Below are positions 4,970-21,287 of a stretch of DNA of 23,072 bases, in pieces. Source of the stretch: a virus. Location of the stretch: positions 1-23,072 of IMG/VR virus record IMGVR_UViG_3300036832_000156; one strand, 5' to 3'. Both the position numbers and the translations under genes were made by a program. Each line of letters opens with the position of its first letter. Position 1 is the stretch's first letter. The notes beneath the pieces are model-generated. The model had not been told where the DNA came from, ran no database searches, and worked only from the letters and a program-made list of their open reading frames with translations.

Positions 4970-5133
4970 TACTTACGGTCTTCCAGGACAACCTCTACCC
5001 AGTGCTTTCGCTCTGGATAGGGCATGGCCTTGATCTCGGACAGGTTCCAGCCCAGGAACTTCTCGGAGATCCTCCGATACTGAAGATAAAGAAGATCGAG
5101 AGGGGTGAGGTCGTTAGCGAAATAAATCGACAA
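4969..5133 (-). CDS. Frameshifted extension of the tail assembly chaperone
   Basis: A short open frame in the +1 phase relative to the upstream chaperone gene. It overlaps that gene's end and stops in the TAA that overlaps the tape measure ATG. Read from the slip point it gives 49 residues: ANDLTPLDLLYLQYRRISEK, then a segment including FLGWNLSEIKAMPYPERKHW. This is the kind of helical C-terminal piece that tail assembly chaperones gain by frameshifting. Its only conventional start would be a TTG at 5133-5131 without a Shine-Dalgarno, so independent translation (54 residues) is less likely than fusion to the upstream protein. The fused product would be 319 residues. Coordinates here use the TTG. 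That the frame is coding is fairly sure; the mode of expression is inference. Confidence 0.65.
   Translation of the reverse strand: MSIYFANDLTPLDLLYLQYRRISEKFLGWNLSEIKAMPYPERKHWVEVVLEDRK
5114..5128 (-). promoter_or_regulatory. Candidate +1 programmed frameshift site
   Basis: On the minus strand the end of the chaperone reads GAT TTA TTT CGC TAA. A tRNA-Phe on TTT can slip forward one base to TTC, with perfect or better pairing, just before the stop, and then continues as GCT AAC GAC in the frame of the extension at 4969. Tail chaperones preceding tape measures commonly use frameshifting, usually -1; +1 is rarer but known. The required direction here follows from the geometry of the frames. 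No obvious downstream pseudoknot was identified by eye. Confidence 0.45.
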
Positions 5134-5929
5134 GGCTCACGGTGTAGTTCGCCTCTCGACCGCATTCGGTACATGTGACCCCCACCTCCTCCATCTGCGG
5201 ACCAGGCTGGGCGTCGGCCATAGCCTGGACGATCTTGCGCCGGTCAGCCATGCTCATCTTCTGAGCGACGTGGCCCGCCACAGGAGCGCCGTCGAGGCGG
5301 CGTATGCAGCGGTCGATAGCGATGGTGATCTCCTCCGGGCCGGTCTTGTTGCCGGTGCCCACCATCTCCAACTGCACTGCCCCGGTGAGCAGCGCCACGT
5401 TGGCGATGTGCCCGTTACGGAGTTCGACCTCTACCTCCTGGACCATCGGGTTGTCCAGCTTCTTCATAGGGATGCTGTCCAGTTCCACGATGGTGCCGAA
5501 GGTCTGGCCGCACAGACGGCAAGGGAAGTCCGGTACCTCCCAGTCGGTGCCGAAGGTCAGCATCCGCACAGCCAGCATGAGTGCGGCCCGGTCACCGGTC
5601 AGCAACTTCTGCAACATCTGAGGCGGGAGCGGATCGATGAGGCCCACCGACAGCACACACCGCTTGAGCAGTAGTTCAACCACCCTAGGCACGTTGACCG
5701 TGGGGCTGAGAAGCTCCCGGGCCATGGCCTCCTCGTCGGCACCGTTGATCTCCCGGATACGGCACTCAGTGTGCAGTACACCATCTGAATCGATGAAGCC
5801 ACCCGGTAGTTGAACAGTGTCAGCGGGCAGGGACGGCATGAGCGGGACGGTTGGCTCTGTGACCTTCCGTACTACCTCGCCAGCCTCAACTGAGGCCGCT
5901 TCTAAGACGTTGGGTTCAAATACTGTCAT
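5114..5929 (-). CDS. Tail assembly chaperone, T4-baseplate-chaperone-like
   Basis: A 271-residue protein between the tail tube and the tape measure, the classic place for a tail assembly chaperone that coats the tape measure during tail building. It resembles the T4-type baseplate/tail chaperone family: a GDRAALMLAVRMLTFGTDWE helix followed by a cysteine pair, CRLC (Cys137, Cys140), and a beta strand TFGTIVEL. A second pair, CTEC (Cys253, Cys256), lies near the C-terminus, so the two pairs could form a split zinc ribbon. The ATG overlaps the TGA of the tube gene (TGATG) with no clear Shine-Dalgarno, implying coupled translation. The end overlaps a +1-phase extension frame. The family call is moderate and the context is strong. 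Confidence 0.72.
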   Translation of the reverse strand: MTVFEPNVLEAASVEAGEVVRKVTEPTVPLMPSLPADTVQLPGGFIDSDGVLHTECRIREINGADEEAMARELLSPTVNVPRVVELLLKRCVLSVGLIDPLPPQMLQKLLTGDRAALMLAVRMLTFGTDWEVPDFPCRLCGQTFGTIVELDSIPMKKLDNPMVQEVEVELRNGHIANVALLTGAVQLEMVGTGNKTGPEEITIAIDRCIRRLDGAPVAGHVAQKMSMADRRKIVQAMADAQPGPQMEEVGVTCTECGREANYTVSLVDLFR

Positions 5930-6537
5930 CAGAACTGTGTAGATGCGCTCAGGAACTTACCGGGATCCTGGGTCGCAGTAACTACTCCCCATCCTTCGTG
6001 TGCGAGTGTCAAGTTTTCGATAAAGACTGCGTTCCCACCGGCTTCCAAGTCACTGAACGAATAGCCCATAGGCCAAGCATTCTGGACAATGAATCGGGCC
6101 TTGATGGGTGGTGGCCGGTCGACACCAGCAGCATAACCCGTTGTGGTGATTGGGTGTTCTAGCACATCGATGGTGATGCCCACTCGGAAGTTGGTGGTCG
6201 GGCCACCGAACCCTCCTCCGATATTCACAGCAAAGATCTGGCCGAACCAGTTGTAGATTTCGTTCCTGCCTACACCTACAGAGGCCGAACCATTCTCGAT
6301 AGGAGCCGCCATGAAGCCACGGGTTAGGGTGATAGGACCGAAGTCTGATTGCCCGGGCATTTTGCGAGTTGTCGTGTTGTTACCACCCTCCCTATAGGGA
6401 ATAACCTCGTTGTTCACAGCCAGTCCAGAGACAGCCATGAAGCCCAGGCGAGGCAGAGTGGGGATGTTGGGATGGTTGATGCTGACCTGGAAGCGGAAGT
6501 TCCGCAGCGGGTCAGAGTTCAGTCCTCGACTGGTCAT
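5929..6537 (-). CDS. Tail tube protein (T4 gp19-like)
   Basis: A 202-residue protein directly after the sheath gene. It starts MTSRGLNSDPLRNFRFQV, the typical opening of gp19-like tube proteins, and carries the family pattern of a conserved GFMAVSGLAVNNEVIPYREG strand region, then ITLTRGFM, and a C-terminal NAWPMGYSFSDLEAGGNAVF stretch. It polymerises into the rigid inner tube that the sheath drives into the cell. A longer frame opens at 6585 inside the sheath gene, but the ATG at 6537 has an excellent AGGAGG six bases upstream and leaves an 8-base gap after the sheath stop, so it was chosen. The gene is visibly less GC-rich than its neighbours, with many A/T-ending codons. Confidence 0.93.
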   Translation of the reverse strand: MTSRGLNSDPLRNFRFQVSINHPNIPTLPRLGFMAVSGLAVNNEVIPYREGGNNTTTRKMPGQSDFGPITLTRGFMAAPIENGSASVGVGRNEIYNWFGQIFAVNIGGGFGGPTTNFRVGITIDVLEHPITTTGYAAGVDRPPPIKARFIVQNAWPMGYSFSDLEAGGNAVFIENLTLAHEGWGVVTATQDPGKFLSASTQF

Positions 6538-6545
6538 GTCTCCTC

Positions 6546-8171
6546 CTAGCTGTTGCTGATGTCGACGGCCTGTCCACCCGCCCACTGGCCGATCTTGATG
6601 ACCACGAACTCGGCGGGGAACTGGAGGGCGACACCAACCTCGACGTGAACGATGCCCTGCTGGATCTGATCAGGGGTGTTATTGGTGGAGTCACACAGCA
6701 CGTAGAAGGCTGACGGGGCGCTCAGCCCTGCCAGGCCACCGCTCTGCCAGAACTGGTTCAAGAACTGACTGAGCACCGAGGTGACGTGGTTCCACAAGAC
6801 CCAATCGTTAGGTTCAAAGACGGCGAACCTCGTCAGGGCGACCATCTGGCTTGACAGGTAGATGATGCTCCGGGCCACCGGCACGTAGCGGGTGACCATG
6901 TAGGACGAGAGCGTGCGTGCGCCCCAGATCACCACGCCTGAACCTGGCACTGACACCAGGCAGTTGACATTGGCCTGGTTGAGGTTGCCCTGATCGGTGT
7001 TAGTCAAAACCCCGGTGGACTCCACACCATAGACACCCAGCAGGGAGGTGCCCAGGCCAGCCGGGGCCTTGGCGACTCCTCTGTTGAGGTCGGTGGCGAT
7101 GTACATACCGGTGACGAACCCGCCCGGAGGAACAGTCCTCGTCGCCCCTGCGGTAGGCGAGTAAGGATCAGCGATGACAAGCTGCGGGTAATAAACCGCC
7201 GCCTTCTCACTGCGGAAGCTCAGGTTCAAGGCCCAGGGCAGCATGGCTGAGGGGGTGTAACCAGGCGGGGGATCAAGAACCAGGAACACGTTGCCCCGGT
7301 TCTGCGCCTGGCCCACGACTGGCCCTATGACAGTGGGGTCATATTGCCCACACAGGTTGACCACGAAGGGCTGGTCCGGGAACTGATCAAGCAGAGCGAA
7401 TGCATTCTGGAAGTCAGTGGGCTGAGGCGCAGGCGGGGGGGCGGGAGGGGAACCAGTGCCGTCCAGGCCACCAGTTAGCTGTGTGGCAGCAACGGACTTG
7501 GGGTTGTTCGATGGGGGTGCAGTGGCCGACGCCCCTCCAGCAGGCTGCGCCAGTTGGATCCACCGGGAGCCGGTGTAGGGGTTGTTCACCACTTGCAGGG
7601 CGTAGTTGGGAGTGCCCATATTGGTGGAGTTCGGCACCAAGGACAGGTCACGCCACTGCTCCACTACATTGCCTGGACCAGGCGTGCCCGTACCTCCTGG
7701 CAAGTAATGGACCAGAAGGTTGAAGGTCAGCATCGGTCCAGCCGGGGGCGTGCTGATAGGGCTTAGGGAACCCGGAGTGACCTCAACCCAAATGTTGTTG
7801 CTCCAAGCTCCCGGGTTGGCAGCCGACACCACCAAGGTCTGCAACGGAGTAGCAGCCTGGTCCATAAGGGTGATCTTGGCTGCCACTGGGTTCGACGCTG
7901 CGGTGGCAATGCGGATGACGACGGCGCTTGACCCACCCGCCGAGAAATAGCTGTACACGGCCAGGTGTAGGGGGCTGACGGGAGCATTAAGTTCAAACCC
8001 GCCGAACCACCCCGTGAAATCACGCCAGGACGTGACGATAGTGGGGACCATCGGACCCCGAGGTGCCCAACCAATGAAGCAGGCCACCGCATCGCCTGGC
8101 GTGGCACTGACATAGGTGGGGAAGGAAGAGGTGTCGACGTAGACGCCAGGCCGACTAAGGGTTACGGGCAT
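6546..8171 (-). CDS. Contractile tail sheath protein
   Basis: A 541-residue protein of usual sheath length. The start, MPVTLSRPGVYVDTSSF, holds the PGVYV motif typical of sheath N-termini. GWAPRGP, a sheath-like glycine loop, follows near residue 35. A Pro-rich insertion (about 240-255) lies in the variable outer domain. The C-terminal domain (about 400-541) has the conserved order of a WNHVTSVLSQFLNQFWQSG helix, the FYVLCDSTNNTPDQI loop and a final FPAEFVVIKIGQW strand. It assembles around the tube and contracts on infection, so the phage is a myovirus. The Shine-Dalgarno AGGAG lies 8 bases before the ATG, which follows one base after the upstream TGA. Confidence 0.96.
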   Translation of the reverse strand: MPVTLSRPGVYVDTSSFPTYVSATPGDAVACFIGWAPRGPMVPTIVTSWRDFTGWFGGFELNAPVSPLHLAVYSYFSAGGSSAVVIRIATAASNPVAAKITLMDQAATPLQTLVVSAANPGAWSNNIWVEVTPGSLSPISTPPAGPMLTFNLLVHYLPGGTGTPGPGNVVEQWRDLSLVPNSTNMGTPNYALQVVNNPYTGSRWIQLAQPAGGASATAPPSNNPKSVAATQLTGGLDGTGSPPAPPPAPQPTDFQNAFALLDQFPDQPFVVNLCGQYDPTVIGPVVGQAQNRGNVFLVLDPPPGYTPSAMLPWALNLSFRSEKAAVYYPQLVIADPYSPTAGATRTVPPGGFVTGMYIATDLNRGVAKAPAGLGTSLLGVYGVESTGVLTNTDQGNLNQANVNCLVSVPGSGVVIWGARTLSSYMVTRYVPVARSIIYLSSQMVALTRFAVFEPNDWVLWNHVTSVLSQFLNQFWQSGGLAGLSAPSAFYVLCDSTNNTPDQIQQGIVHVEVGVALQFPAEFVVIKIGQWAGGQAVDISNS

Positions 8172-8172
8172 A

Positions 8173-8907
8173 TCACGCTCCTGCTGTCTCGGATCGGTAC
8201 TGACCGTGGATTTCCCCGGGGAGCACCTGGGGGGTGTCGCTGATAGCGGTTACCGCACGCTCTCCCCACACCTTCTGACCAGTGCGGGACTCAATGAGAG
8301 CAATGACCACCTTGGCTACCCGGGTAGTGGAGATGGCGATCATGGACTCGATCTCGGTGGAGATGCGGACTTGGTAGATCTGCCGGAAGAGCCGCTTGTC
8401 GGCCTCCATGGCGTTGGTACGGGTGACCCCCATGACGGTGAGGCGGCGCACCGTGCCACCCGGGCAAGTCACCTGGGCGAAGCGGGGGTGCAGTCGACCG
8501 AGCGCCAGAGCGCCGCTGATCTGAGAGATGTGCTGGTTGATCCTGGCCGAGGCGGTCACGGTGTAGTCGAAGTCCATGGGGATCGGGTACTCCATGAACA
8601 CGGCGTCACTGAAGGGGATGTCCTGGAGGTAGCGAAACCAGATCGGCACCCAGCCCCGGTGCTCCCGCTCATGGGCCACCCGCTCGCTCAGGAAATTCAC
8701 CACCATATTCGGATATACGATGCGCCGCTCTTCTCTCTCAGGGTTGTGAAACCACACCGGCACCGGGCGAGGCGTGCCTGGGCTGGTGTTGAGATCGGTG
8801 ACCGTGACGCCCTGGAGGAGGGTCTTGAGGCCCATGTCCTCTTCGGTGTAGAGGCCCAGGAAGGGAGGGTTGGGGTCGGTGTCATACGTGGGGTTGACGA
8901 CGGTCAT
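8173..8907 (-). CDS. Virion protein, tail-completion/terminator position
   Basis: A 244-residue protein just upstream of the sheath, with no family I can name with confidence. The N-terminal 50 residues are Pro-rich and look flexible. The middle contains the YPNMVVNFLSERVAHEREHR helix and EYPIPMDFDYTVTASARINQ, a hydrophobic and polar strand followed by a helix (HISQISGAL), a layout seen in tail-completion proteins that cap the tube at the neck. A long C-terminal strand/helix region follows. The ATG overlaps the TGA of the 128-residue gene by four bases. Position between neck and sheath genes supports a tail terminator or neck role; this is inference, and a purely structural decoration role is not excluded. 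Confidence 0.5.
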   Translation of the reverse strand: MTVVNPTYDTDPNPPFLGLYTEEDMGLKTLLQGVTVTDLNTSPGTPRPVPVWFHNPEREERRIVYPNMVVNFLSERVAHEREHRGWVPIWFRYLQDIPFSDAVFMEYPIPMDFDYTVTASARINQHISQISGALALGRLHPRFAQVTCPGGTVRRLTVMGVTRTNAMEADKRLFRQIYQVRISTEIESMIAISTTRVAKVVIALIESRTGQKVWGERAVTAISDTPQVLPGEIHGQYRSETAGA

Positions 8908-9290
8908 CTCAGGCTTCCGGCCAACTCGGAGTAGAAGACCTCTTCGATGTCACCGCTCTGTCTCGCCAACTCGGTAGCCACTTCGGTGATCTGGTAGTGG
9001 TTCTCCATCTGGTTGGCGATGGAGGCCATGCCCCACACCCCCGGTGAGGACGGGATACCGACCACGACGTTGCCCTGGTCCTCAAAAACCTGAAGGTGTT
9101 CTGCCACGTCATGGAACAGGGAGATGCTGCTCTCACCCTTGATCAGCATCTGCATGTGACCACGCAATGCCTCACCGGCTGCATGGGCGGCGGGCATGAC
9201 AGCCTTCTGCATTTTTCCGTATTGGCGTGCGGCCTTGCCCAGCATCTCCACGTCTGCTTGCTTGACGCAGTTGAATAAAGAGGAAGGCAT
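8904..9290 (-). CDS. Neck protein, HK97 gp10-like
   Basis: A 128-residue protein, first gene of the leftward tail operon. The layout is a long N-terminal helix (DVEMLGKAARQYGKMQKAVM, then PAAHAAGEALRGHM), a central strand region (FEDQGNVVVGIP) and a segment WGMASIANQMENHYQI. This matches the general shape of HK97-gp10-like head-tail joining proteins, in which the ANQMENHY-type stretch corresponds to the conserved 'A...E.G' region. The assignment is by pattern only. GAGGG lies a few bases before the ATG. It starts right at the divergent region, so it is probably the first gene of its transcript. Confidence 0.5.
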   Translation of the reverse strand: MPSSLFNCVKQADVEMLGKAARQYGKMQKAVMPAAHAAGEALRGHMQMLIKGESSISLFHDVAEHLQVFEDQGNVVVGIPSSPGVWGMASIANQMENHYQITEVATELARQSGDIEEVFYSELAGSLR

Positions 9291-9413
9291 TTTCCCTCTG
9301 TCGCTGGGCGTTTTTTGGCTGGTGCTGCTTGACCGGCGTTGGCGGGCCGGATAGCTCCAAGCGTAGGTCCGGGTGTCGCACCCCCCTTGACCACCCGAAC
9401 GTAGCCTGGGGGT
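9291..9413. promoter_or_regulatory. Divergent intergenic region between the two structural operons
   Basis: This is the largest non-coding gap in the window and the only place where transcription of the leftward tail operon and the rightward neck/fibre/lysis operon can both begin locally. For the plus strand, TTGACC at 9329-9334 sits 17 bases before TAGCTC at 9352, a weak -35/-10 pair; a second TTGACC lies at 9387. A small perfect inverted repeat, GGGTG-TCG-CACCC, spans 9371-9383. A T6 run lies at 9311-9316. No strong consensus promoter is visible on the minus strand, so a phage-specific or host-alternative sigma site, or transcription from outside, is possible. Confidence 0.4.
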
Positions 9414-9419
9414 GTGTCA

Positions 9420-10529
9420 GTGACTGGGCCGGTCAGCGGACTTCCGAACCCGTACGACATCACCGCAGGCGTACCGGGGCAGTACCCCGATTCCGATCAA
9501 GGGTCGCTCTACCCCCCAGTAGATCCCTCTTCGACCCAGCGGATCGCTCAGATGGCCCGACTCCGACTCCGGGATCTGCCCCGGCCCTTCCTGGCGAGGC
9601 AGACCTGCTCTGGAGCAGCCTGGCGGTTTGAGCTACCCGTGGAGAACGTCGAAGCGGGCAGCTTCCAGGTGGTGCTCACCGACACCACCCAGGAGGGCAC
9701 GACGAACCAAGTCCTGGGCCAGGACTACTTCCTCGATGCCCATGGTGGTGTCCTCACCTTCCGGGTCGCTCCCGTGGGGGGCATGCTCATGGTGGCGCAG
9801 GGCACCTACTACCGGGACTTCCTGCCCGCCGAGCTTGACCTCTATATCCGCACGGCCTACATCCAGCACACCTACGGCACCGAGCCGACTGAGCAAGTCG
9901 ACATCTACGGCGACACTCCGGTGCTGCCACCCCCTCCGAACTCAGCGGGCCAGCCCATCTACCCCGGCACCCCGGCCCCCATGATGCTCAACGAGGTGGA
10001 GGAGTACCCAGTCTCCATCCTGGTCACGATCATGGCCCTGTGGGACATGGCCGTGGGCATCGCCCAGCAGCACGACATCCATACCCCGGACGGGGTGACC
10101 ATCCCCATCAGCCAGGTGTTCCAGCAGTTGATGTCGATGATCAACGCCCTCCAGACCCAGTACCTGACCCTGTCGAGCGCCCTGGGCGTGGGCCTGTATC
10201 GCATCACCCAGTCCAGGCTGCGCCGGGTCAGCCGTACTACCAAGAGGTTGGTGCCCATCTTCCGATCCAAGGAGTACGACGACATCACCTGGCCCCAGCG
10301 GGAGATGCCGCAGATCGATGTCACGCAGAAGATGTACACCTACCAGGGCACCTGGGATGCCACCCGGGCCTACAACCCCCAGGATCTCATCGACTACAAG
10401 AACCACCGGTACGTGGCCCTCCAGCCCAGCACCAACATCGACCCCACCCTGGACGTGGACCCCAAGACCGGGTCCGGGTACTACTGGGCCTGGACCACCA
10501 TCAACACGGGGTGGGTGGGCTGGTGGTAG
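9420..10529 (+). CDS. Head-to-tail adaptor with C-terminal carbohydrate-binding-like domain
   Basis: A 369-residue protein. After a flexible N-terminus comes a beta-rich region (about 65-130), then a helical core including EEYPVSILVTIMALWDMAV, DGVTIPISQVFQQLMSMINA and YRITQSRLRRVSRTTKRLVP. The last segment resembles neck/adaptor proteins of other high-GC phages, by remembered pattern. The final 64 residues look like a separate small domain: YQGTWDATRAYNPQDLIDYK, then HRYVALQ and an aromatic end (YYWAW, WVGWW). This is the order of CBM5/12-type modules. A GTG at 9414 is possible, but GGGGG at 9408-9412 is better spaced for the GTG at 9420. It is the first gene of the plus operon. The adaptor role and the sugar-binding role are both inference. 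Confidence 0.55.
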   Translation: MTGPVSGLPNPYDITAGVPGQYPDSDQGSLYPPVDPSSTQRIAQMARLRLRDLPRPFLARQTCSGAAWRFELPVENVEAGSFQVVLTDTTQEGTTNQVLGQDYFLDAHGGVLTFRVAPVGGMLMVAQGTYYRDFLPAELDLYIRTAYIQHTYGTEPTEQVDIYGDTPVLPPPPNSAGQPIYPGTPAPMMLNEVEEYPVSILVTIMALWDMAVGIAQQHDIHTPDGVTIPISQVFQQLMSMINALQTQYLTLSSALGVGLYRITQSRLRRVSRTTKRLVPIFRSKEYDDITWPQREMPQIDVTQKMYTYQGTWDATRAYNPQDLIDYKNHRYVALQPSTNIDPTLDVDPKTGSGYYWAWTTINTGWVGWW

Positions 10530-11188
10530 CTCCGTACCCTGATATTCCTCCGACTCCCAGCCACCTGAACTCAACCCAGTTCAAGGACCACGTCCACCCT
10601 CATCAGATGGCCCTGCCTGGCATGGAGCACATGGCTCACCCCTGGGCCGAGCACCTGTCCCGTGGCTTCATGTTGCAGTTCAGTAGTAGCCGCAGTGAGC
10701 ACCACCTGACCGCCATGGACGTGTCCGACCCGAAGTGGGGACCGCAGGAGGCGGCAAGCCTGGACTGGGCCAAGAGCCATCGAGATGTGCCAGGTGAAAT
10801 CAAGATGGTGCTGAACTACCAGGCCGGTGGCAAGGAGACTCACGGGCAGGGCGTAGCCAAGGGACTGGCCGGGGCGCTCATGCACTCGGCCCACCATTGG
10901 GACTTCGGCCAGGAGACTCTGCCGATCCATTCCCATGTTCGCACCGAAGCTGGAGAGCACTTCGCCACCAAGACCCGGCCTGACCTCAAGCCCGATGTGT
11001 GGAGCAACCTGGACAAGCCTGGTGCGAGGTACCGAACCAAGGGCAAGGCTTCGCATGCCCCTGTCGAGTGGCCCAACGTAGGCCCGGAGTTCCACCCCTT
11101 CCAGAAGCAGAAGGCTGAAGCAGAGAGGGCTGCTGCCACCAAGATGAGGACACCGAAGAAGGCCAAAGGCCAGGGGACGTTGTTCTGA
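10523..11188 (+). CDS. GNAT-like protein of unknown role in neck operon
   Basis: A 221-residue protein if translation begins at the GTG at 10523, which overlaps the last codons of the adaptor gene. The open frame extends further upstream inside that gene, but an overlap of hundreds of bases is unlikely. The centre has the order of a GNAT acetyltransferase fold: a strand GEIKMVLNYQ (91-100), a GxGxA-like turn and helix GQGVAKGLAGALMHSAHH, then a strand PIHSHVRTEAGEHFAT, which resembles the HS..RT..G signature of GNAT-like proteins common in actinophages. The acceptor substrate is unknown. The C-terminus is Lys/Ala-rich and probably disordered. Its stop overlaps the next ATG (ATGA). The frame is surely coding; the fold is a modest inference, and a purely structural protein is the alternative. 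Confidence 0.5.
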   Translation: MVAPYPDIPPTPSHLNSTQFKDHVHPHQMALPGMEHMAHPWAEHLSRGFMLQFSSSRSEHHLTAMDVSDPKWGPQEAASLDWAKSHRDVPGEIKMVLNYQAGGKETHGQGVAKGLAGALMHSAHHWDFGQETLPIHSHVRTEAGEHFATKTRPDLKPDVWSNLDKPGARYRTKGKASHAPVEWPNVGPEFHPFQKQKAEAERAAATKMRTPKKAKGQGTLF

Positions 11189-11694
11189 TGCCGCTCTACA
11201 CCCCCGACTACATCGCCAAGGATCGGGTGATTCGCATGAACGAGGTCATGCGGAACTACCAACGGGTATGGGGCGAGAACGTGCTGTGGTCCGAGTACGA
11301 CGCCCTGGACTCCTCCAAGCACAACGTCTACGACGAGGGACCGACCCGGGTGTGGTACCCACCCTGCACCCTGCCGGTCATGTTCCTCGACTTCCGCCAG
11401 GACGATCCCATGGACACCGACGAGGGCTTCTACGTCCTGTCGACGGCCTCAGTGTGCTTCCAGGTGACCGAGGCCATGAACCGGTTCAGAATAAATCCTC
11501 TCTTTACAGCCTCTCACTTCCGGGACCGATTTTCCTACGACAACATCGTCTACCGGGTGACCAAGTACGAAAAGCAGGGTTTCGTTCACGGGACATACCT
11601 CACCGTGAGCGCCCTGGGCGAGCAAGTCAAGGCCGAAGAAGTCGTTAACGACGCCCAGCAGCAAGACTTCTTCGTGCAGCAGTTGGTGTGGTGA
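11188..11694 (+). CDS. Head closure/stopper-like neck protein
   Basis: A 168-residue protein with no named family recognised. It contains NVLWSEYDAL, NVYDEGPTRVWYPPCTLPVM, FRQDDPMDTDEGFYVLSTAS and a C-terminal strand region FVHGTYLTVSALGEQVKAEE. The YDEG...W..P..LP pattern followed by a beta barrel-like remainder fits head-closure (stopper) proteins that plug the portal and join the tail. This fits its place two genes after the adaptor. It is coupled by ATGA overlaps to both neighbours. An oddity is a run of rare, AT-rich codons (AGA ATA AAT and others) at about 11488-11515 in an otherwise GC-rich gene, encoding RINPLFTASHF. The function is inference from position and shape. Confidence 0.5.
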   Translation: MPLYTPDYIAKDRVIRMNEVMRNYQRVWGENVLWSEYDALDSSKHNVYDEGPTRVWYPPCTLPVMFLDFRQDDPMDTDEGFYVLSTASVCFQVTEAMNRFRINPLFTASHFRDRFSYDNIVYRVTKYEKQGFVHGTYLTVSALGEQVKAEEVVNDAQQQDFFVQQLVW

Positions 11695-12140
11695 TGACCC
11701 TCCAGTACGACTTCTACCTGAGTGCCGGGGCCGACTGGCAGAAGGTGGTGCGCCTGCGTGACCAGGGCACGGGCAGGCTCATCGCCCTGGAGTCTGCCGT
11801 CATGGAGATCCGCAACACCAACTACGTCCTGGTGCTACGGCTCGACTATGACAGCGGGCGCTGCGTGGTAGCTGAGGACGGGGCCTCCATCCAGTTGCAC
11901 ATCAGCGACGACGACAGCCTGGCGTACCTGTCCCAGGGCAACTACCCCGGAGCGGTTCAAGCTGTTGGGGTTTGGGGCATCGGGCGGTCTTACATCTACG
12001 ACCTGTTCGTGCTCTACGGCACTGGGGTGCAGGACCGCATCCTGCGGGGCTACTTCTACGTGGACCCCAACATCACCCGTGGCCCCGAACTCACAGCCCA
12101 GCCCACCGCACTCGCCATCGGCCAGAGAGGCAACTACTGA
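11694..12140 (+). CDS. Fibre adaptor/upper baseplate-like protein
   Basis: A 148-residue protein. It shows the pattern of small all-beta proteins encoded just before collagen-like fibres in many phages: an opening [18 protein letters not shown], then a strand SAVMEIRN, a turn region [16 protein letters not shown], then [10 protein letters not shown] and [15 protein letters not shown]. By this resemblance it would be an adaptor connecting a receptor-binding fibre to the tail, but I cannot name a family with certainty. GTG codons at 11688 and 11691 are also in frame. The ATG at 11694 was chosen because it forms an ATGA overlap with the upstream stop, as elsewhere in the operon. Its TGA overlaps the fibre ATG. 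Confidence 0.5.
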
Positions 12141-12928
12141 TGACTGACGCCATCGTCATCACCCCCGAGACTGATGTCATCGAGATCCTGACACCAGGCA
12201 TGCCCGGACCTCCCGGCATGCCTGGCCCCCGGGGGCCAGGTGGGGTGCAGGGGCCAACCGGTCCAGCAGGCCCAGTCGGTCCCAGTGGCCCCTATGGGCC
12301 TCCAGGGGGCTTTGTAGTCGCTGCGGTCATACCAGACACCAGCCACCTCCCAGCGGCCCCTACAGCGGCTCAGGCGGGCATGGTGTGGCTGGTGGGAACG
12401 ACGAGCTACGTCGTCTACTGGTGGAACGGGACGACCTGGCAGACCCTGAACATGGCAGCCGGTCCTCAAGGGCCTCCGGGGCCAGCAGGTCCAACCGGGT
12501 CAGCCGGTCCCCAGGGAGTCGTGGGGCCAACTGGAGCGCAGGGGCCAGTGGGAGCTACTGGCGCAACCGGGAGCATGGACCAGCTATTCCCGCCCACCTG
12601 GGCAGATGCGTCCTCGCTCCTAGTCATACCGTGGAAGCCGATCACCAACTCGCTTGTCAGCTACTACGTAGATGGCTTCGGGCGCTGCCAGCTTCGGGGC
12701 GAGGTGTTCTTCCAGGGTGGAAATCCTGGGGACGCCTCCATCATCATGGCCTGCCCTCCGGGCACCACGCCCAAGCAGAACGCTGTCCTCTGCGCCATCG
12801 AGGATGTCATCCCTATGCGGGTGTATCGGGTAGACGTACGCACAGATGGCAAAATTGTCTTGAGGTTCCCTGTGCCCTACTCCACAGGCCAGCTTTTCCT
12901 CGACAGCCTCAGTTGGAGCACCCAGTAA
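12140..12928 (+). CDS. Collagen-like tail fibre / receptor-binding protein
   Basis: A 262-residue protein with two Gly-X-Y collagen-like stretches (residues about 20-57 and 107-145). They flank a short globular segment (58-106, containing [20 protein letters not shown]) of a type often found between phage collagen repeats. Residues about 146-262 form a beta-rich tip: [42 protein letters not shown]. This matches trimeric fibre heads that bind the host surface. Trimerisation through the collagen rods is expected from the repeats. The start is fixed by the ATGA overlap; a longer frame to the left is only an overlap with the preceding gene. The receptor cannot be deduced. Confidence 0.8.
12197..12310 (+). 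repeat. Collagen-like Gly-X-Y repeat coding segment 1
   Basis: Consecutive Gly-X-Y triplets rich in proline ([16 protein letters not shown] at its start), coding the first rod of the fibre protein. DNA is GC-rich, with GGN CCN repeats in several codon variants. Confidence 0.85.
12458..12574 (+). repeat. Collagen-like Gly-X-Y repeat coding segment 2
   Basis: A second run of Gly-X-Y triplets in the fibre gene ([13 protein letters not shown] and following), leading directly into the C-terminal tip domain. Confidence 0.85.
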
Positions 12929-12937
12929 AGGAGCGAC

Positions 12938-13117
12938 ATGAGTACTACCGAAGCCCCCGAACCTCACCCCGAAGCCCAGCCCCAAGAAGCTCCTGCGGAA
13001 CCCTATGTCGACCCCACCGGAGCACCTGGGGGGACCGGCGTACAACCGCCCGCCACCGAGGAGCCGGTCACTGAGTCTCCTGCTGAGGAGAGCGAAGACG
13101 AGTCGGAGGAAGAGTGA
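12938..13117 (+). CDS. Tiny acidic Pro/Glu-rich protein
   Basis: A 59-residue protein starting MSTTEAPEPHPEAQPQEAPA and ending in the acidic tail EESEDESEEE. It is low in complexity and predicted disordered, with no cysteine, membrane segment or known motif. The start has a good Shine-Dalgarno (AAAGGAG, four bases before ATG), which argues for a real gene. It sits 9 bases after the fibre stop and overlaps the next gene by GTGA. Function unknown. A small fibre- or DNA-mimic-type role could be imagined, but nothing in the sequence supports one. Confidence 0.65.
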   Translation: MSTTEAPEPHPEAQPQEAPAEPYVDPTGAPGGTGVQPPATEEPVTESPAEESEDESEEE

Positions 13118-13287
13118 GCACTCCACGATTCGACATGGATCTGGATGATCCTCGCTGGACTGATGGCACCTTTGAGTTCCCGTCACGGGCTGACCTGGAA
13201 CGGGAGCCAAGTCACCCTGAACTGATCCCTGACGACCACCCTGGCCCGTTCAAGGAGCGGAGAGAGGAGCAGAAGGATGGCACTTAA
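13114..13287 (+). CDS. Tiny protein of unknown function
   Basis: A 57-residue protein reading MSTPRFDMDLDDPRWTDGTF at its start. The GTG start overlaps the preceding TGA (GTGA) and has GAGGAA upstream. It is acidic/proline-rich, without membrane segments or recognisable motifs, and its last 11 bases overlap the endolysin start. An ATG at 13135 is an alternative start. Like its upstream neighbour, it sits between the fibre and the lysis genes. The tight overlaps support coding; the function is unknown. Confidence 0.6.
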   Translation: MSTPRFDMDLDDPRWTDGTFEFPSRADLEREPSHPELIPDDHPGPFKERREEQKDGT

Positions 13288-14110
13288 CCGAATCTGGCTG
13301 CCCTCTCCCAACTACTCCAGCCGGGGAGGAGCAGGCGTACGCCTGATCGTTATCCATACGGCTGAAGGATCGAAAACATACCAGTCGTTGGGTAACTACT
13401 TCGCCTCTTCATCCAGCCAGGTGTCCTCCCATACCGGGATTGATGACACTGTCAACACTGTGGGGGAATACGTAAAGCGGGGCAATAAAGCGTGGACGGC
13501 CTCAAACGCAAATCCTGTGGCCGTTCAGGCCGAGCTATGTGCCTTTGCCGCCTGGGACAGCGCCGAGTGGCACAGGCACCCCAACATGCTGTCGAACTGT
13601 GCCGCCTGGATCGCTGAGGAAGCCGCCGCCTTCGGCATCCCCATCACCAAGCTGAATGCCTCTCAGGCTCAGGGTTCAGGGCGGGGCGTATGCCAGCACG
13701 TCGATCTCGGTAGCTGGGGCGGCGGGCACACCGACTGTGGCTCTGCTTTCCCACTGGACGAGGTCATCGCTATGGCCGGGGGCCAACCAGCACCGTCACC
13801 AGGGCCTACGCCCACTCCTCCCCCGGCAGGTAAAGCGCCACCCTTTCCCTACCCAAGCTCCGATTACCTGGGCAAACCAAGCTCCGATCCACATTGTCAT
13901 TCCGGCCACTACGGCGGCGTGGATAGCACGAACGTCCGCACCTGGCAACAGCAGATGGCGAACAGGGGATGGAACATCGGTGTAGACGGCGACTTCGGAA
14001 ATCAGTCAGATCAGGTCTGTCGCCAGTTCCAGGCTGAGAAGGGCTTGTCCGTAGATGGACTTGTAGGTCCGACCACTTGGTCTACAAGTTGGACCGCAGC
14101 CGTGACCTGA
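13277..14110 (+). CDS. Endolysin: N-acetylmuramoyl-L-alanine amidase with peptidoglycan-binding domain
   Basis: A 277-residue lysin. Residues about 15-165 are an Amidase_2-type zinc amidase: the first zinc histidine (His27) in LIVIHTAEG, then SSHTGID, and a C-terminal pair of candidate ligands in QHVDLGSWGGGHTDCG (His141, His151/Cys154). It cleaves the bond between N-acetylmuramic acid and L-alanine. A Pro-rich linker (172-192) leads to a peptidoglycan-binding_1 domain: residues about 215-277, with VRTWQQQM, VDGDFGNQS and LSVDGLVGPTTW. The start has AGGAG before GCAGAAGG-ATG. There is no signal peptide, so release depends on the holin-like proteins encoded immediately after. Confidence 0.93.
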   Translation: MALNRIWLPSPNYSSRGGAGVRLIVIHTAEGSKTYQSLGNYFASSSSQVSSHTGIDDTVNTVGEYVKRGNKAWTASNANPVAVQAELCAFAAWDSAEWHRHPNMLSNCAAWIAEEAAAFGIPITKLNASQAQGSGRGVCQHVDLGSWGGGHTDCGSAFPLDEVIAMAGGQPAPSPGPTPTPPPAGKAPPFPYPSSDYLGKPSSDPHCHSGHYGGVDSTNVRTWQQQMANRGWNIGVDGDFGNQSDQVCRQFQAEKGLSVDGLVGPTTWSTSWTAAVT

Positions 14111-14111
14111 T

Positions 14112-14390
14112 GTGAGTTCGGTACCAGGCCGAGAATCTGAGGAACCGAAGGAGGTCAGTCGGCTTGAGTGGCTGGCTCAGCGTGTCAACAAGGATCAGGA
14201 ATACCCACGATGGGTAGCTATCGTCCGACAGGTAGCCGTCTTCCTGCTGGGGGTGTGGATCATCACCTACTCGGTCAATGCCAGCAGCAAGAACATCGCC
14301 TACATCATCACGGGACTGATCCTGATCGGCATCATCCCGGTGGAGACAATGCTCCTGGCCGTAACCCGGCGTCGCAAGCGAGATGAATGA
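14112..14390 (+). CDS. Holin-like protein with two membrane segments
   Basis: A 92-residue protein starting at GTG one base after the endolysin stop. The hydrophilic N-terminus (1-33) is followed by two transmembrane helices, about 35-55 (VAIVRQVAVFLLGVWIITYS) and 61-84 (NIAYIITGLILIGIIPVETM), and a basic tail RRRKRDE, which favours a cytoplasmic C-terminus. Small size, two membrane spans and position right after the endolysin fit a holin, the membrane pore that times lysis. There is no clear Shine-Dalgarno, so translation is probably coupled. No named holin family is assigned. Confidence 0.75.
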   Translation: MSSVPGRESEEPKEVSRLEWLAQRVNKDQEYPRWVAIVRQVAVFLLGVWIITYSVNASSKNIAYIITGLILIGIIPVETMLLAVTRRRKRDE

Positions 14391-14665
14391 GTGTCACCGA
14401 TCTCATCGCCCTCATTGCAGGCATAGGTGGGATCGTCGCCGCCATTGGAGGAGTCCTGCTGGCGATCAGGACCGTACGTAACAAGGAGCGCAAGGGAGCC
14501 AAGGAAGACCTCGACAGCATGAGCCACATGCTGGCCGACGAGCGCCGCCTACGCATCGAGGCGGAACGTCACAACTACGAGCTTCTACTCGATCTGGCGG
14601 AACATGGCATCAAGCCACCGAAGCAGAACGGGGGAGAGGATGGGATGGATCCGAAGAGTCTTTAG
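14387..14665 (+). CDS. Small membrane protein with coiled coil, second holin or lysis accessory
   Basis: A 92-residue protein with one N-terminal membrane segment (about 5-27, LIALIAGIGGIVAAIGGVLL) followed by a charged helix, RTVRNKERKGAKEDLDSMSH through ERRLRIEAERHNYELLL, likely a coiled coil. It is coupled to the upstream holin-like gene by an ATGA overlap. One-span proteins of this size often accompany actinophage holins and are thought to modulate or form part of the lysis pore; that role is inference. A spanin-like role is less likely because no lipobox is present. Confidence 0.65.
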   Translation: MSVTDLIALIAGIGGIVAAIGGVLLAIRTVRNKERKGAKEDLDSMSHMLADERRLRIEAERHNYELLLDLAEHGIKPPKQNGGEDGMDPKSL

Positions 14666-15212
14666 TAGCGGGGTGGCGCTGCTGCTCATCGCCGCTGCCC
14701 TATTTATCGCCTGCGCCGTAGCTCTGGTAGTGGGGAACCCTCCCGAGCCTGCGGCAGCAGGGCCACCAGGAGCACACGGCCCCCCTGGACCACAGGGGAA
14801 AACTGGGCCAACAGGACCACAAGGCCAACGGGGACCACAAGGAGAAAGAGGTGCCATTGGACCAGCCGGAACCGGATCAACAACTGCGAGCCAGGCGGGA
14901 GTAGTGGGAGCAACGGGAAGCACCGGTACGGCGGGAGCGACGGGAACGCAAGGCCAGGCAGGATCCAGCGGCTCCACAGGATCCGCTGGAGCGAAGGGCC
15001 AACCGGGTGCAATTGGCCCGTCTGGCGGTCGTGGACCTGCTGGCCCTGCTGGGCCTGCCGGTGTCCGAGGAGCGACGGGAGCTACGGGGAAGGCCGGTGC
15101 AACCGGACCACCGGGGCCAGCAGGTCAGGCGTGCCCAGCCGGATACTCCCTGAAGCCCCTCTCCGTCAAGGAGAAGAGCGAAGTCCTCAACTTCCTGGCC
15201 TGCCAGCGGTAG
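14640..15212 (+). CDS. Membrane-anchored collagen-like protein
   Basis: A 190-residue protein: a short basic start (MGWIRRVF), a membrane segment at 11-32 (GVALLLIAAALFIACAVALV), about 120 residues of Gly-X-Y repeats (41-163), and a compact C-terminus with two cysteines (Cys165, Cys188) that could form a disulfide. By the positive-inside rule the collagen rod would lie outside the membrane. The ATG at 14640 is preceded by GGGGAGAGG. An earlier ATG at 14604 lacks this and lies deeper in the upstream gene. The repeat uses many GGA, CCA and ACA codons, unlike the C-ending codons of neighbouring genes. Being last in the lysis operon and membrane-anchored, it is probably not an ordinary fibre. Its role is unknown; an adhesin made in the infected cell, or a lysis accessory, are possibilities. 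Confidence 0.75.
   Translation: MGWIRRVFSSGVALLLIAAALFIACAVALVVGNPPEPAAAGPPGAHGPPGPQGKTGPTGPQGQRGPQGERGAIGPAGTGSTTASQAGVVGATGSTGTAGATGTQGQAGSSGSTGSAGAKGQPGAIGPSGGRGPAGPAGPAGVRGATGATGKAGATGPPGPAGQACPAGYSLKPLSVKEKSEVLNFLACQR
14760..15128 (+). repeat. Collagen-like Gly-X-Y repeat in membrane protein
   Basis: About 40 Gly-X-Y triplets. The first third is Pro/Gln/charged-rich (GPPGPQGKTGPTGPQGQRG), the middle is Ser/Thr/Ala-rich (GATGSTGTAGATGTQG), and the end is Pro-rich again, so the repeat is compositionally layered. Confidence 0.85.
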
Positions 15213-15386
15213 CTATTCCGTATCGCTCATCAGCCGACTGGTAAAGACAGTGTCCAGGTAGCCAGTGGCTCCCAGGAAGCTGGGGTCTTGGCCGACTGTG
15301 CCGAGCATCGACTCCACTAGGGAGGGTGGCTGGTCATTGGTGGCGATTACGTCAAACGATGGACCGAAGGCGGTTGACATGCTCAT
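15213..15386 (-). CDS. Tiny protein ending the head operon
   Basis: A 57-residue protein starting MSMSTAFGPSFDVIATNDQP and containing SLVESMLGTVGQDPSFLGA. Its ATG overlaps the TGA of the 152-residue gene (ATGA), the coupling used throughout this operon, which is the main reason to call it. Its TAG stop abuts the TAG stop of the rightward collagen gene with no base between. No membrane segment, cysteine or known motif is present. Probably a minor virion or assembly protein by location; the function is unknown. Confidence 0.6.
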   Translation of the reverse strand: MSMSTAFGPSFDVIATNDQPPSLVESMLGTVGQDPSFLGATGYLDTVFTSRLMSDTE

Positions 15387-15845: not shown

Positions 15846-16241
15846 TCAGCTTAAATTTTTGCTATAGGAGCCTGCCGAGATGCTGAAGGTGTCCCCTAAG
15901 TTGCAGGTCTTGTTCGTGCTCAGAAGTCCGAACCAACGCCGGGTGGTGCCGTTGGCGTCGTACTCTTCCACGCCTCCGACTGTGCAAGCAGGCATATTGA
16001 CATAGGTCAGCGTGTTGCTCGACGTGATGGCACCACCCGAGGGGGCGGCGAACTGGATGGCCTTACGAACATAGCCCGCACCCACCACTTCGCTCCCCGG
16101 CGTCGTGGCTGTGCTGGGGGTAGTGATAGTTATCAGAGCCACAAGCTGGGTGCCAAGGCCACCGGACACAGGAGTGAAGGCAGCCTGGCCCGAAGACGCC
16201 GCCAGGATGTTATTCGCTTCGGTGGTGGTCAGGTTGGCCGT
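15846..16241 (-). CDS. Small virion protein with apparent ACG start
   Basis: A 131-residue protein when read from an ACG at 16241. Residues 1-24 (M/T-ANLTTTEANNILAASSGQ...) join smoothly to the rest: GSEVVGAGYVRKAIQFAAPS, TVGGVEEYD, GLLSTNKTCNLGDTFSISAG. This resembles a recurrent phage virion protein pattern (N-terminal helix, 'G.E..G.GY.R..v.F' and 'GDtf.i.aG'). The first conventional start, a GTG at 16169, would remove the conserved helix and has no Shine-Dalgarno. In contrast, a strong AAGGAGG (16252-16246) sits four bases before the ACG. Between the frame's upstream stop and 16169 there is no ATG, GTG or TTG. Coding is fairly sure; the start is inference. Confidence 0.6.
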   Translation of the reverse strand, partial: TANLTTTEANNILAASSGQAAFTPVSGGLGTQLVALITITTPSTATTPGSEVVGAGYVRKAIQFAAPSGGAITSSNTLTYVNMPACTVGGVEEYDANGTTRRWFGLLSTNKTCNLGDTFSISAGSYSKNLS

Positions 16242-16579
16242 GACTCCTCCTTGGTGTAGTCGAACTCCGGGGAGGTGATCCCATGGACCTCAAAGAGTTC
16301 AGCCAGGTACTCCCTGGGAGGGTTCTGCAAGAACTCGTTGAACCTCTCACCCGGCTCCAACGCATCGTCGTCGTTCAACGCCACCCGGGCGTGCTTCATG
16401 GCGGTCTGACAAAGCTCACAGCCATCCGAAGCGCAGCACTGGACGTGCTTGGTGATCGATAAATCAACCGGTTGCTTTGAAATCGGGTGAGTGAAAGCCA
16501 CGTAATTGGTGTGATGCCCGTGACTATCTGTCAATTCACACTTGGCACATTGACGCTCGATGCGCTCACCCTCAGCCAT
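16229..16579 (-). CDS. Cysteine-rich zinc-binding head-operon protein
   Basis: A 116-residue protein with CAKCELTDSHGHHTNYVAF at 11-29, then HVQCCASDGCELC at about 45-57. The two CxxC pairs, an extra cysteine and several histidines make one or two zinc sites likely. The rest is acidic and helical, with REYLAELFEVHGI near the C-terminus. Proteins with this CxxC...DS...H..CC...GC..C layout occur next to capsid genes in actinophages as I recall them; their function is not known. It is coupled to the upstream gene by TGATG, and its end overlaps the next gene's start region by 13 bases. Confidence 0.65.
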   Translation of the reverse strand: MAEGERIERQCAKCELTDSHGHHTNYVAFTHPISKQPVDLSITKHVQCCASDGCELCQTAMKHARVALNDDDALEPGERFNEFLQNPPREYLAELFEVHGITSPEFDYTKEESRPT

Positions 16580-17106
16580 CAGTGGTAGACCACCCCCCGG
16601 CTATCGAGCCAGTTATAAAGATCCCGGGGGACACGGTAACGACGGCCTCGTAAGAAGGTGTAGCTGGTGCCCGCTCCGTAGGTCATGTCCTCGATGTCGG
16701 TATTGACCCTGATGACCCGCCACTCGTCCTCTACCACCATGGGTTCCGGACCCAGGTCTTGGACCTCCATGGCGTTGGGCGTCTGGACCTTGGGCACCTT
16801 CTTCATCTCCATGTCCTGGAGATCCTTCATGGGGTCATAACCGGGCACCACGTTGGTGGGGTCCAGGACGGGGTCATCCTCCACCGTCACGGGCTGGCTG
16901 AGGGACTCGATGCGGGCCTGGGCCTCCGGTGACATCTCCACCACCTGACCGGAGGAGGGGTCGAAGACCCCTTCCTCCTCGATCACGGTGTCGACTTGGT
17001 TGACCAGGCCGACTTCTTGCTGGCGCTGAGCCAGTACCTGGGCGTTCTCCTCAGCCAGACGCTCTCGCTGCTGGCCGGTGAAGTCGCCTCGTTGCGCTCT
17101 CGGCAT
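16579..17106 (-). CDS. Conserved head-operon protein downstream of capsid
   Basis: A 175-residue protein three bases after the capsid stop. The N-terminal half is a charged, Gln/Glu-rich helix and an acidic, Pro-containing segment (likely disordered). The C-terminal 50 residues are compact: EWRVIRVNTDIEDMTYGAG, then YTFLRGRRYRVPRDLYNWLD and GVVYH. That end (F..Gr.Y.VPr.l...L...G.v) recurs in proteins downstream of phage major capsid genes as I recall them. Its role is not established; a connector or head-completion function is plausible by position. No Shine-Dalgarno lies in the short gap, so it is probably translated by coupling. Confidence 0.6.
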   Translation of the reverse strand: MPRAQRGDFTGQQRERLAEENAQVLAQRQQEVGLVNQVDTVIEEEGVFDPSSGQVVEMSPEAQARIESLSQPVTVEDDPVLDPTNVVPGYDPMKDLQDMEMKKVPKVQTPNAMEVQDLGPEPMVVEDEWRVIRVNTDIEDMTYGAGTSYTFLRGRRYRVPRDLYNWLDSRGVVYH

Positions 17107-17109
17107 CGA

Positions 17110-18120
17110 TCAGTTGGTCCAAGCCTGGACCACGCTCTGATCGGTGATGAGGCCAAAACCCCATATCGAGTACCAACACAGGGCATGCTCACGACCGAAG
17201 TCCAGCACCCCACCGTCACGAAGCTCGACGGGGAGGGCGATGGCGTGGCCGAAGGCATTGTCGCCCAGGTAGAGCGCACCGTGGGTGACGCCAGCGTTGC
17301 CCTGGCCGGTGCCACCAGCGGGACCAGCACCAGGGGCGTACTGACGCACCTGGGTTGTCTCGATGTACACCACGTCGTTGAGCCGCCCGATCTCCCCGAT
17401 CATGAAATTACCCGGTGCTGCATATTTTGTCATTTCGATGAATTCCGGGTTATCTCGTATCCTACGAGACTGATGCGGGTCGATGAAGCACACGTATGTC
17501 TCACCGATGCGAGGGACGTTCTTGGTCGCCAGCGTTTCGACCGCATCCTTGGTCACGTTGACGCTCATGTACTGGGTGCCAGCCAGGGCGGCGTAGTTGG
17601 CAGCCACCACGCCCTGGTCGTAGGGCGAGAGCGGAGTGATGGCACCAGTCGGCAGGGTGTAGCCGAAGATGGTGCTGGAGGACTGGTACAGGGTGTCCCG
17701 GGCGCTGCCGTCCAGGTACTTCGCCATGTTCCTCCCGAGCAGGCGTGAGGACGAAGCCATCACGTCATCGAAGGAAGCGTTGAGCAGTAGCTCACTCACG
17801 GCCACGGCGTAGCCCTGCTCAGCCACGGTGATGGCGTACTGGCTGGCCGTGAGGGCAGCGGTCTGCATGCGGACACCTTCAACCAACTGCGTGGCGTCAC
17901 CCAGGTTATTATAACGCATGAAGTTCACTTGAAGGCCAGGTTGTATACCGAGTTCCGTCTTCTTTACAGCAAACTGCTCGAAACGCAGTACGGGCATGCT
18001 CTGGAACAATATCTCTTTGCTCCAAATGACCTGGATAGCCGGGGAAAGCTGTGAGTTCGTACCCGGGTACCCGGTTGGCGACGCACTCAGCAGCGGGGTT
18101 CCAGTGATGCTGGAGGGCAT
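17110..18120 (-). CDS. Major capsid protein, probably N4 gp56-like
   Basis: A 336-residue protein following the scaffold gene. It has the pattern of N4-gp56-type capsid proteins: an N-terminal helix region with VIWSKEILFQSMPVLRFEQF, the strand GLQVNFMRYNNLGDATQLVEG, then AEQGYAVAVSELLLNASFDD, and a C-terminal domain with YVCFIDPHQSRRIRDNPEF and GEIGRLNDVVYIETTQVRQY. The fold is expected to be HK97-like and to build the icosahedral shell. It has the best Shine-Dalgarno in the window, TAAGGAGGT eight bases before the ATG, consistent with high expression. Two AT-richer patches (about 17400-17470 and 17900-18060) stand out from the rest of the gene. Confidence 0.88.
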   Translation of the reverse strand: MPSSITGTPLLSASPTGYPGTNSQLSPAIQVIWSKEILFQSMPVLRFEQFAVKKTELGIQPGLQVNFMRYNNLGDATQLVEGVRMQTAALTASQYAITVAEQGYAVAVSELLLNASFDDVMASSSRLLGRNMAKYLDGSARDTLYQSSSTIFGYTLPTGAITPLSPYDQGVVAANYAALAGTQYMSVNVTKDAVETLATKNVPRIGETYVCFIDPHQSRRIRDNPEFIEMTKYAAPGNFMIGEIGRLNDVVYIETTQVRQYAPGAGPAGGTGQGNAGVTHGALYLGDNAFGHAIALPVELRDGGVLDFGREHALCWYSIWGFGLITDQSVVQAWTN

Positions 18121-18159: not shown

Positions 18160-18945
18160 TCATTGCCTACGGCTGATGGATGCCGCTCGCAACAAGTTCT
18201 CTCGTTCAGCAGCGTATTCCTCTGGAGTCATGGCCTTGAGTTCATCCGCCGTATACGTGCGTGTGGCCCCAGCAGTTTCCATGGGACCGACTGGAGGCGC
18301 AGTGACACCCACAGTTGGTCTTGTGGAGTTGACCTTCCGTAAACCGTCCACCACATTGTTGCGAATGAGGTCGGTTTTTTGCATGAGCAGGTTGATCGAG
18401 GCGTCGATCTCTTCGGGGCTATTTCCGGCGACAAGATCTCGCAGTTCCTCTGCGATTTTGTCACCGTCCTGAGCCATACGCTGGGCCAGGTAGGTCTGAA
18501 GGGAGGCGTGGCGGCGCTCCTGGTCAAGGATGGCAAGGGCGTTTTCCCTGGCCTTGCGCTCCTCTTCCAGCTTCTGCTCCCACTCCTGATCCTTCTTCTG
18601 GATCAGGTCACGAAGCTCCATCTCCTCTTCTTCTTTTTTCTTCTGCGCCTTGGCAGTCTCCCGCTGGAGCTTTTCTTCCGCCTTCTGGCGGTCCTCAGCC
18701 TCCTTGCGGTACTGGGCCAACTCATTCTGGAGTTCGTCAGCCCGCTGCTGCTCTGCGGCGTAGCGGGCACGCTCCTCCTGGCGGATGCGCTCGACATCCT
18801 CCGTGGTGAATGCCTGGGGCGGCTCGCCACTGCGCTGTTGGCGTGGGGGCTGGGCCGGTGGCTCAGCCGGGACGGTGATGGTGGTACCGGGATCAGGTGG
18901 CTGTGGCTCACCTTCAGGCTGGTTCTCTGGTTCGGTGACGGTCAT
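18160..18945 (-). CDS. Capsid scaffold protein
   Basis: A 261-residue protein between portal and capsid genes, the standard scaffold position. Residues 1-45 are Pro/Glu-rich and disordered. About 50-165 form a long, highly charged coiled coil (TEDVERIRQEERARYAAEQQ through EEEEMELRDLIQKKDQEWEQ). About 165-215 are helical (ASLQTYLAQRMAQDGDKIAE), and the C-terminus contains ADELKAMTPEEYAAERENLL, a typical short capsid-binding helix. It would guide prohead assembly and then leave. No protease gene is visible in the window. The ATG overlaps the portal stop (TAATG). Confidence 0.87.
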   Translation of the reverse strand: MTVTEPENQPEGEPQPPDPGTTITVPAEPPAQPPRQQRSGEPPQAFTTEDVERIRQEERARYAAEQQRADELQNELAQYRKEAEDRQKAEEKLQRETAKAQKKKEEEEMELRDLIQKKDQEWEQKLEEERKARENALAILDQERRHASLQTYLAQRMAQDGDKIAEELRDLVAGNSPEEIDASINLLMQKTDLIRNNVVDGLRKVNSTRPTVGVTAPPVGPMETAGATRTYTADELKAMTPEEYAAERENLLRAASISRRQ

Positions 18946-21093: not shown

Positions 21094-21287
21094 TTAGGGC
21101 CGGTGGGCTTGCCGCCCCGGTAGACGCCCTCCAGGGCACCACCCAGTTGACTCATGCTGGGCGCACGACCTCCCTCTCGTCGGGGCGAAGACGCCAGGGG
21201 GCTGGCATGAGGGTCACGCCGGTCGTTCCACAGGGTGTCCACGTCCATGTAGTCGACCGGCACACCTTTTACCTTGGACTGCTTCAT
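21090..21287 (-). CDS. Tiny protein with NDRR motif
   Basis: A 65-residue protein: MKQSKVKGVPVDYMDVDTLW leads to NDRRDPHASPLASSPRREGG, and the end is Gly/Lys-rich. The ATG overlaps the stop of the 594-residue gene (ATGA), and its own TGA overlaps the next ATG. The LWNDRRD stretch parallels LFNDRRS in the small protein at 20714, so the two may derive from one another or bind the same partner. Likely a minor head or assembly protein by place. Function unknown. Confidence 0.6.
   Translation of the reverse strand: MKQSKVKGVPVDYMDVDTLWNDRRDPHASPLASSPRREGGRAPSMSQLGGALEGVYRGGKPTGPK

Follow-up and report, generated by a model that had tools for sequence, protein, structure and literature searches.

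Tailed phages are classified with the help of the order and direction of their head, neck and tail genes, which belong to their more conserved features. In the Type 1 neck modules of Virfam, the mean gene order is Ad1-Hc1-x-Tc1 (PMC4362835). In Cluster O mycobacteriophages such as Corndog, the virion and lysis gene set is broken by opposite-strand genes, with predicted leaderless promoters (PMC4351075), and leaderless genes of high-GC Actinobacteria are reported to carry TAnnnT some 12 bp ahead of their start (PMC3160421). Closest to the locus described here are Borockvirus and its relatives (Streptomyces phages BRock, LuckySocke, Alone3, GiJojo and pSt2308), contractile-tailed phages with homologous capsid, portal, sheath and tube proteins, of which the capsid is 68-70% and the portal 54-55% identical to ours. 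In BRock the genes run capsid, gp146, gp145, gp144, gp143, gp142, the fibre-like gp141 and gp140, gp139 and sheath.

The window, by which we mean the whole stretch of 23,072 bases that was analysed (IMG/VR record IMGVR_UViG_3300036832_000156, probably a fragment), comes from a lineage related to BRock and carries a real, old and fixed inversion that is a clade-specific architecture. A search of the open literature returned no described neck-gene inversion, which is not proof of absence.

Results

Open reading frames confirm the strand layout that a sequence-only reading had proposed. A leftward head set (23068-15213: portal, scaffold, capsid and small head-side genes) and a leftward tail set (9290-17: terminator-like gene, sheath, tube, baseplate, tape measure and a hub with NlpC/P60) flank a block that runs rightward from 9414 to 15212. 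The interval first drawn around this block, 9291-15386, does contain it, but also spans the 123-bp divergent gap and the leftward gene at 15213-15386. The genes concerned are as follows.

18945 to 20714, minus strand: portal protein
17110 to 18120, minus strand: major capsid protein
16579 to 17106, minus strand: head-side protein, homologue of BRock gp146
15846 to 16169, minus strand: head-side fibre or decoration protein, homologue of BRock gp144
15213 to 15386, minus strand: last gene of the head set, detected only in the inverted clade
9414 to 15212, plus strand: inverted block (neck, fibre and lysis genes) drawn from open reading frames, in 30 records oriented against the head and/or tail genes
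9414 to 10529, plus strand: F371, probable adaptor (T4 gp13-like) with a C-terminal fibre-like domain, homologue of BRock gp143
10610 to 11188, plus strand: protein G192, start codon uncertain, no family match
11188 to 11694, plus strand: H168, stopper (head-closure protein) by predicted fold, homologue of BRock gp142
11688 to 12140, plus strand: I150, phrog_1084, detected only in the inverted clade
12134 to 12928, plus strand: collagen-like tail fibre
12938 to 13117, plus strand: small protein (open reading frame), conserved in L094
13114 to 13287, plus strand: small protein (open reading frame), conserved in L094
13277 to 14110, plus strand: endolysin, amidase with a peptidoglycan-binding domain
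14112 to 14390, plus strand: small protein, holin candidate by position alone, no significant family
14387 to 14665, plus strand: holin candidate, weak match to phrog_1350 (E 0.013)
14604 to 15212, plus strand: collagen-like protein, last gene of the block
8904 to 9290, minus strand: p128, first gene of the tail set, detected only in the inverted clade
8173 to 8907, minus strand: protein in the terminator position, homologue of BRock gp139, weak match to tail sheath stabiliser
6546 to 8171, minus strand: tail sheath
5929 to 6585, minus strand: tube
5114 to 5929, minus strand: T4-baseplate-like protein
1631 to 4969, minus strand: tape measure with tail lysozyme

Ahead of the portal gene, 21284-23068 encodes a 594-residue protein with no family match, whose homologues also stand ahead of the portal in loci L014 and L023.

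The neck proteins are identified from structure predictions (pLDDT 76 and 73) and distant matches, and the adaptor and stopper called earlier from the letters did not fare equally. H168 (168 residues), modelled from 44 relatives with a mean pLDDT of 75.7, matches stoppers and head-closure proteins in the necks of T4 (E 7.9e-5) and Pam3 (E 3.1e-4), with further matches in phiCD508, T1, lambda, SPP1 and others, so that its predicted T4 gp14/SPP1 gp16 fold makes the stopper assignment well supported. F371 (371 residues), modelled from 63 relatives (pLDDT 73.3, with much of the core above 90), has the T4 gp13-gp14 complexes as its best fold matches at E 2.6e-4, but with TM-scores of at most 0.26, and T5-type, GTA and phage 812 necks among lower-ranked ones. 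With a poorer model and weaker support than the stopper, it is a probable T4 gp13-like adaptor. Residues 302-349 match phrog_5073, and the final 70 residues resemble a fibre module. On the tail transcript, 3 of the 35 members of the 8173-8907 family match phrog_227 weakly (best E 0.008), and a sequence-profile search of solved structures with four neck and tail-end alignments returned nothing useful. Because the stopper and probable adaptor lie inside the block and this putative terminator lies outside it, the neck set appears to be split, as had been claimed. The 192-residue protein of 10610-11188, between adaptor and stopper, is present in about half of the flipped loci.

Relatives were gathered from viral contigs, genomes and phage records by capsid, sheath and stopper searches, and their gene order was scored with protein profiles. 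The divergent layout recurs in 30 distinct records from many different samples, the window included, and is therefore neither chance nor an assembly artefact. These 30 records, in which adaptor and stopper are flipped, belong to the window's own clade, within which capsid proteins are as little as about 83% identical to the window's; the search returned no cultured member. Those homologues of the two neck genes that were found are co-directional with head and tail in 58 other distinct records, among them the cultured Streptomyces phages BRock, LuckySocke and pSt2308, loci in Terracoccus, Actinomadura, Nonomuraea, Herbidospora and Streptomyces genomes (Actinomycetota prophages included) and one locus in a Chloroflexi MAG.

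On a capsid tree of 102 rows, the flipped records form one group (support 99) nested in co-directional lineages, and the adaptor tree yields the same single split (support 100). One change of state suffices on each of the capsid, portal, sheath and adaptor trees. No co-directional block was found within the flipped clade among the loci scored, nor any intermediate with part of the segment flipped. For L022, the deepest flipped contig, the state was inferred from I150 and the fibres and not read directly, because the contig ends before the adaptor. The capsid tree is rooted at its midpoint and has no formal outgroup, which leaves some room for the divergent layout to be the ancestral one and the co-directional order derived. 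However, the flipped group is nested and the deeper loci from prophages and MAGs that allowed scoring are co-directional, which makes this very unlikely. One of the nearest co-directional relatives, L025, has all genes on one strand and an adaptor homologue whose C-terminus is extended in a similar way. Just ahead of that homologue, L025:3680-8353 encodes a 1557-residue repetitive fibre-like protein with no Pfam family.

As the window stands, its shared genes do not follow the BRock-like order. Turning 9414-15212 round restores that order exactly for every shared gene: 16579-17106, 15846-16169, 9414-10529, 11188-11694 and 8173-8907 are the homologues of gp146, gp144, gp143, gp142 and gp139, and the fibres then fall between the stopper and gp139. 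This collinearity, together with the co-directional outgroups and the one-change trees, argues for one old, fixed inversion. We consider it highly probable that the neck-plus-fibre segment was inverted once, in place, in the ancestor from which this soil clade of BRock-like myophages descends. An ancestral inversion and a distinct lineage architecture had both been suggested beforehand; the inversion is supported, and it has also become fixed in one clade.

An insertion had also been suggested. On such a reading, a foreign divergent cassette of neck, fibre and lysis genes would have replaced the native ones. It would explain why the lysin, I150, r57 and p128 were not found in co-directional relatives (a homologue of p128 was specifically sought there), and why the neck and tail proteins diverge more between the groups than within the co-directional group. 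Yet adaptor and stopper are homologous to the genes found at that place in relatives and occur in one copy in each of two long flipped-clade genomes, and the adaptor tree recovers the same single split. The extra divergence is common to the sheath, tube and terminator-like protein, which stayed put, and is therefore as expected under vertical descent. A cassette is accordingly improbable as the source of the whole block, in which the lysis genes and some fibres alone have the look of additions.

At the far end of the block, the stop codons of its last gene and of 15213-15386 abut as TAG|CTA (15210-15215). In 10 of 16 loci inspected, the convergent stops either meet exactly (0) or share 4 bases; overlapping (CTAG) or abutting (TAGCTA) stops are seen at the equivalent place in L017, L020, L022, L098, L104 and L118. 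Because the stop codons overlap or abut, no room is left for a terminator between the convergent genes; an intrinsic terminator scan gave nothing above shuffles, and the hairpin at this end (z -0.7 to -1.6) is no clear terminator. Inverted repeats at the block ends are limited to imperfect, scattered matches, several of them in collagen-like coding repeats, and none brackets the block. This bears on whether the block might be an invertible segment that switches orientation, as in the Mu or Min systems. Fibre genes, the usual cargo of such switches, are present in it, but with no bracketing repeats, no recombinase recognised in the window and no flipped-clade locus in the other orientation, such a switch is hardly credible, the more so as the paired element described below is unique and stands at one end only. 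The flipped layout had a single origin and has been retained since, and so we take it to be no insertion, artefact or switch.

The earlier claim that lysis genes lie between head and tail holds for the amidase endolysin, for which alone the lysis assignment is certain, the holins being weak candidates. The lysin lies within the block in the flipped genomes searched, and elsewhere in those co-directional genomes where it was located. L022 carries a weakly sulfatase-like protein and collagen-like fibres at this place and no lysin beside the head genes, and the lysis genes may for this reason have been gained after the inversion. The protein in question (L022:7570-9666, 698 residues) has a weak sulfatase C-terminal match (E 0.009) where relatives carry lysis genes. 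The window's block holds two collagen-like proteins (12134-12928 and 14604-15212), and the second begins with a membrane-anchor-like segment and adjoins the holin candidates.

At its other end, the block starts from a short gap that it shares with the tail genes.

9291 to 9413, no strand: divergent gap of 123 bp, start of the block and of the tail genes, length and motifs conserved in 22 loci
9392 to 9409, plus strand: rightward element copy, CACCCGAACGTAGCCTGG, with TAGCCT at 9402-9407
9358 to 9375, minus strand: leftward element copy, CACCCGGACCTACGCTTG, with TACGCT at 9365-9360

The gap holds two outward-facing, back-to-back copies of an 18-bp element close to CACCCGRACNTAnnnTTG. This paired element with its TAnnnT boxes is newly described here, and it is conserved: a pair scoring above 30 bits is present in 35 of 41 flipped loci as opposed to 0 of 60 co-directional loci, and it is unique in the window and in the two long genomes. 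Since these very gaps served to train the matrix, what is informative is that the pair is unique and that co-directional loci differ from flipped ones. As for the six flipped loci that lack a scored pair, L022, L024, L100 and L118 do not hold the gap, and L007 and L114 (the same contig) have element copies shortened by a base.

We infer from the sequence that the element is a two-way promoter or operator, and the gap would be a new and probably two-way control region that separates the block from the tail genes. The first T of TAGCCT lies 12 bp before the GTG start at 9414, which fits the leaderless TAnnnT spacing, and in most relatives TAnnnT stands 11-13 bp before the start; the adaptor mRNA would thus be leaderless. 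A transcript from the leftward box would begin about 64 bases ahead of the ATG at 9290, with GAGGG as the ribosome site of this leader. The leftward leader (9291-9357) also includes, in most relatives, CCGG-N10-CCGG and a T-rich stretch (GGCGTTTTTTGGC), a possible leader hairpin. Even with the inversion accepted as real, it is possible, if somewhat unlikely, that the 18-bp pair acts as an operator for a repressor or activator, or as a site of DNA processing, and not as two promoter cores. Its halves form a near-palindrome at a fixed spacing, their 5′ ends lying 17 bp apart in the loci that score best, and a simple scan found no sigma-70 site or -35 box and nothing above shuffles. Against this, the distance from TAnnnT to the start, in the window and in most relatives, is that of leaderless promoters. 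The two-way promoter reading is open to direct test.

Discussion

The history that we propose begins with an ancestor in which portal, scaffold, capsid, head-side genes, adaptor, stopper, one or more fibres, the terminator-like gene and the sheath would all have stood on one strand. Once the segment from the adaptor through the fibres had been inverted, the start of the adaptor gene would have faced the start of the tail genes, and the end of the fibre genes that of the head genes. The inverted segment would thereby have lost access to the head-side transcript; presumably it now has a promoter of its own in the 123-bp gap, from which the tail transcript would also start leftward. The endolysin and probable holins may have joined the flipped operon at its far end. 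Neck, fibre and lysis proteins would come from one late transcript, apart from head and tail.

More tentatively still, it is conceivable that the inversion created a separately controlled late operon for neck, fibre and lysis genes, with the unique near-palindromic site setting the ratio and timing of tail versus neck, fibre and lysis products. If true, head-tail joining and lysis would be regulated together. The lysis genes joined the flipped block, and relatives keep theirs elsewhere. The clade has diversified with adaptor and stopper on the opposite strand, and co-directional neck transcription is therefore not needed for a viable virus. The locus also provides a natural test of which control sequences arise once a virion operon has been split in three.

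Like the Type 1 neck modules, the window has its stopper after its adaptor in their own direction of transcription, whereas the adaptor-stopper pair as a whole runs opposite to the portal, capsid and tail genes. Cluster O phages such as Corndog share with the window an opposite-strand interruption and predicted leaderless promoters, but their reversed genes are few, small and for the most part of unknown function, and in the window these are neck, fibre and lysis genes. The Borockvirus group has the same order as the window after reversal of the block (portal, scaffold, capsid, gp146, gp144, adaptor, stopper, fibres, gp139, sheath, tube). In contrast to the window, however, its genes are all co-directional, its endolysin lies far off (LuckySocke gp185 at 94 kb, with the capsid at 31 kb) and the paired element is absent. 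Because its head, neck and tail genes are not all on one strand, we regard the window as a related lineage and do not file it within Borockvirus.
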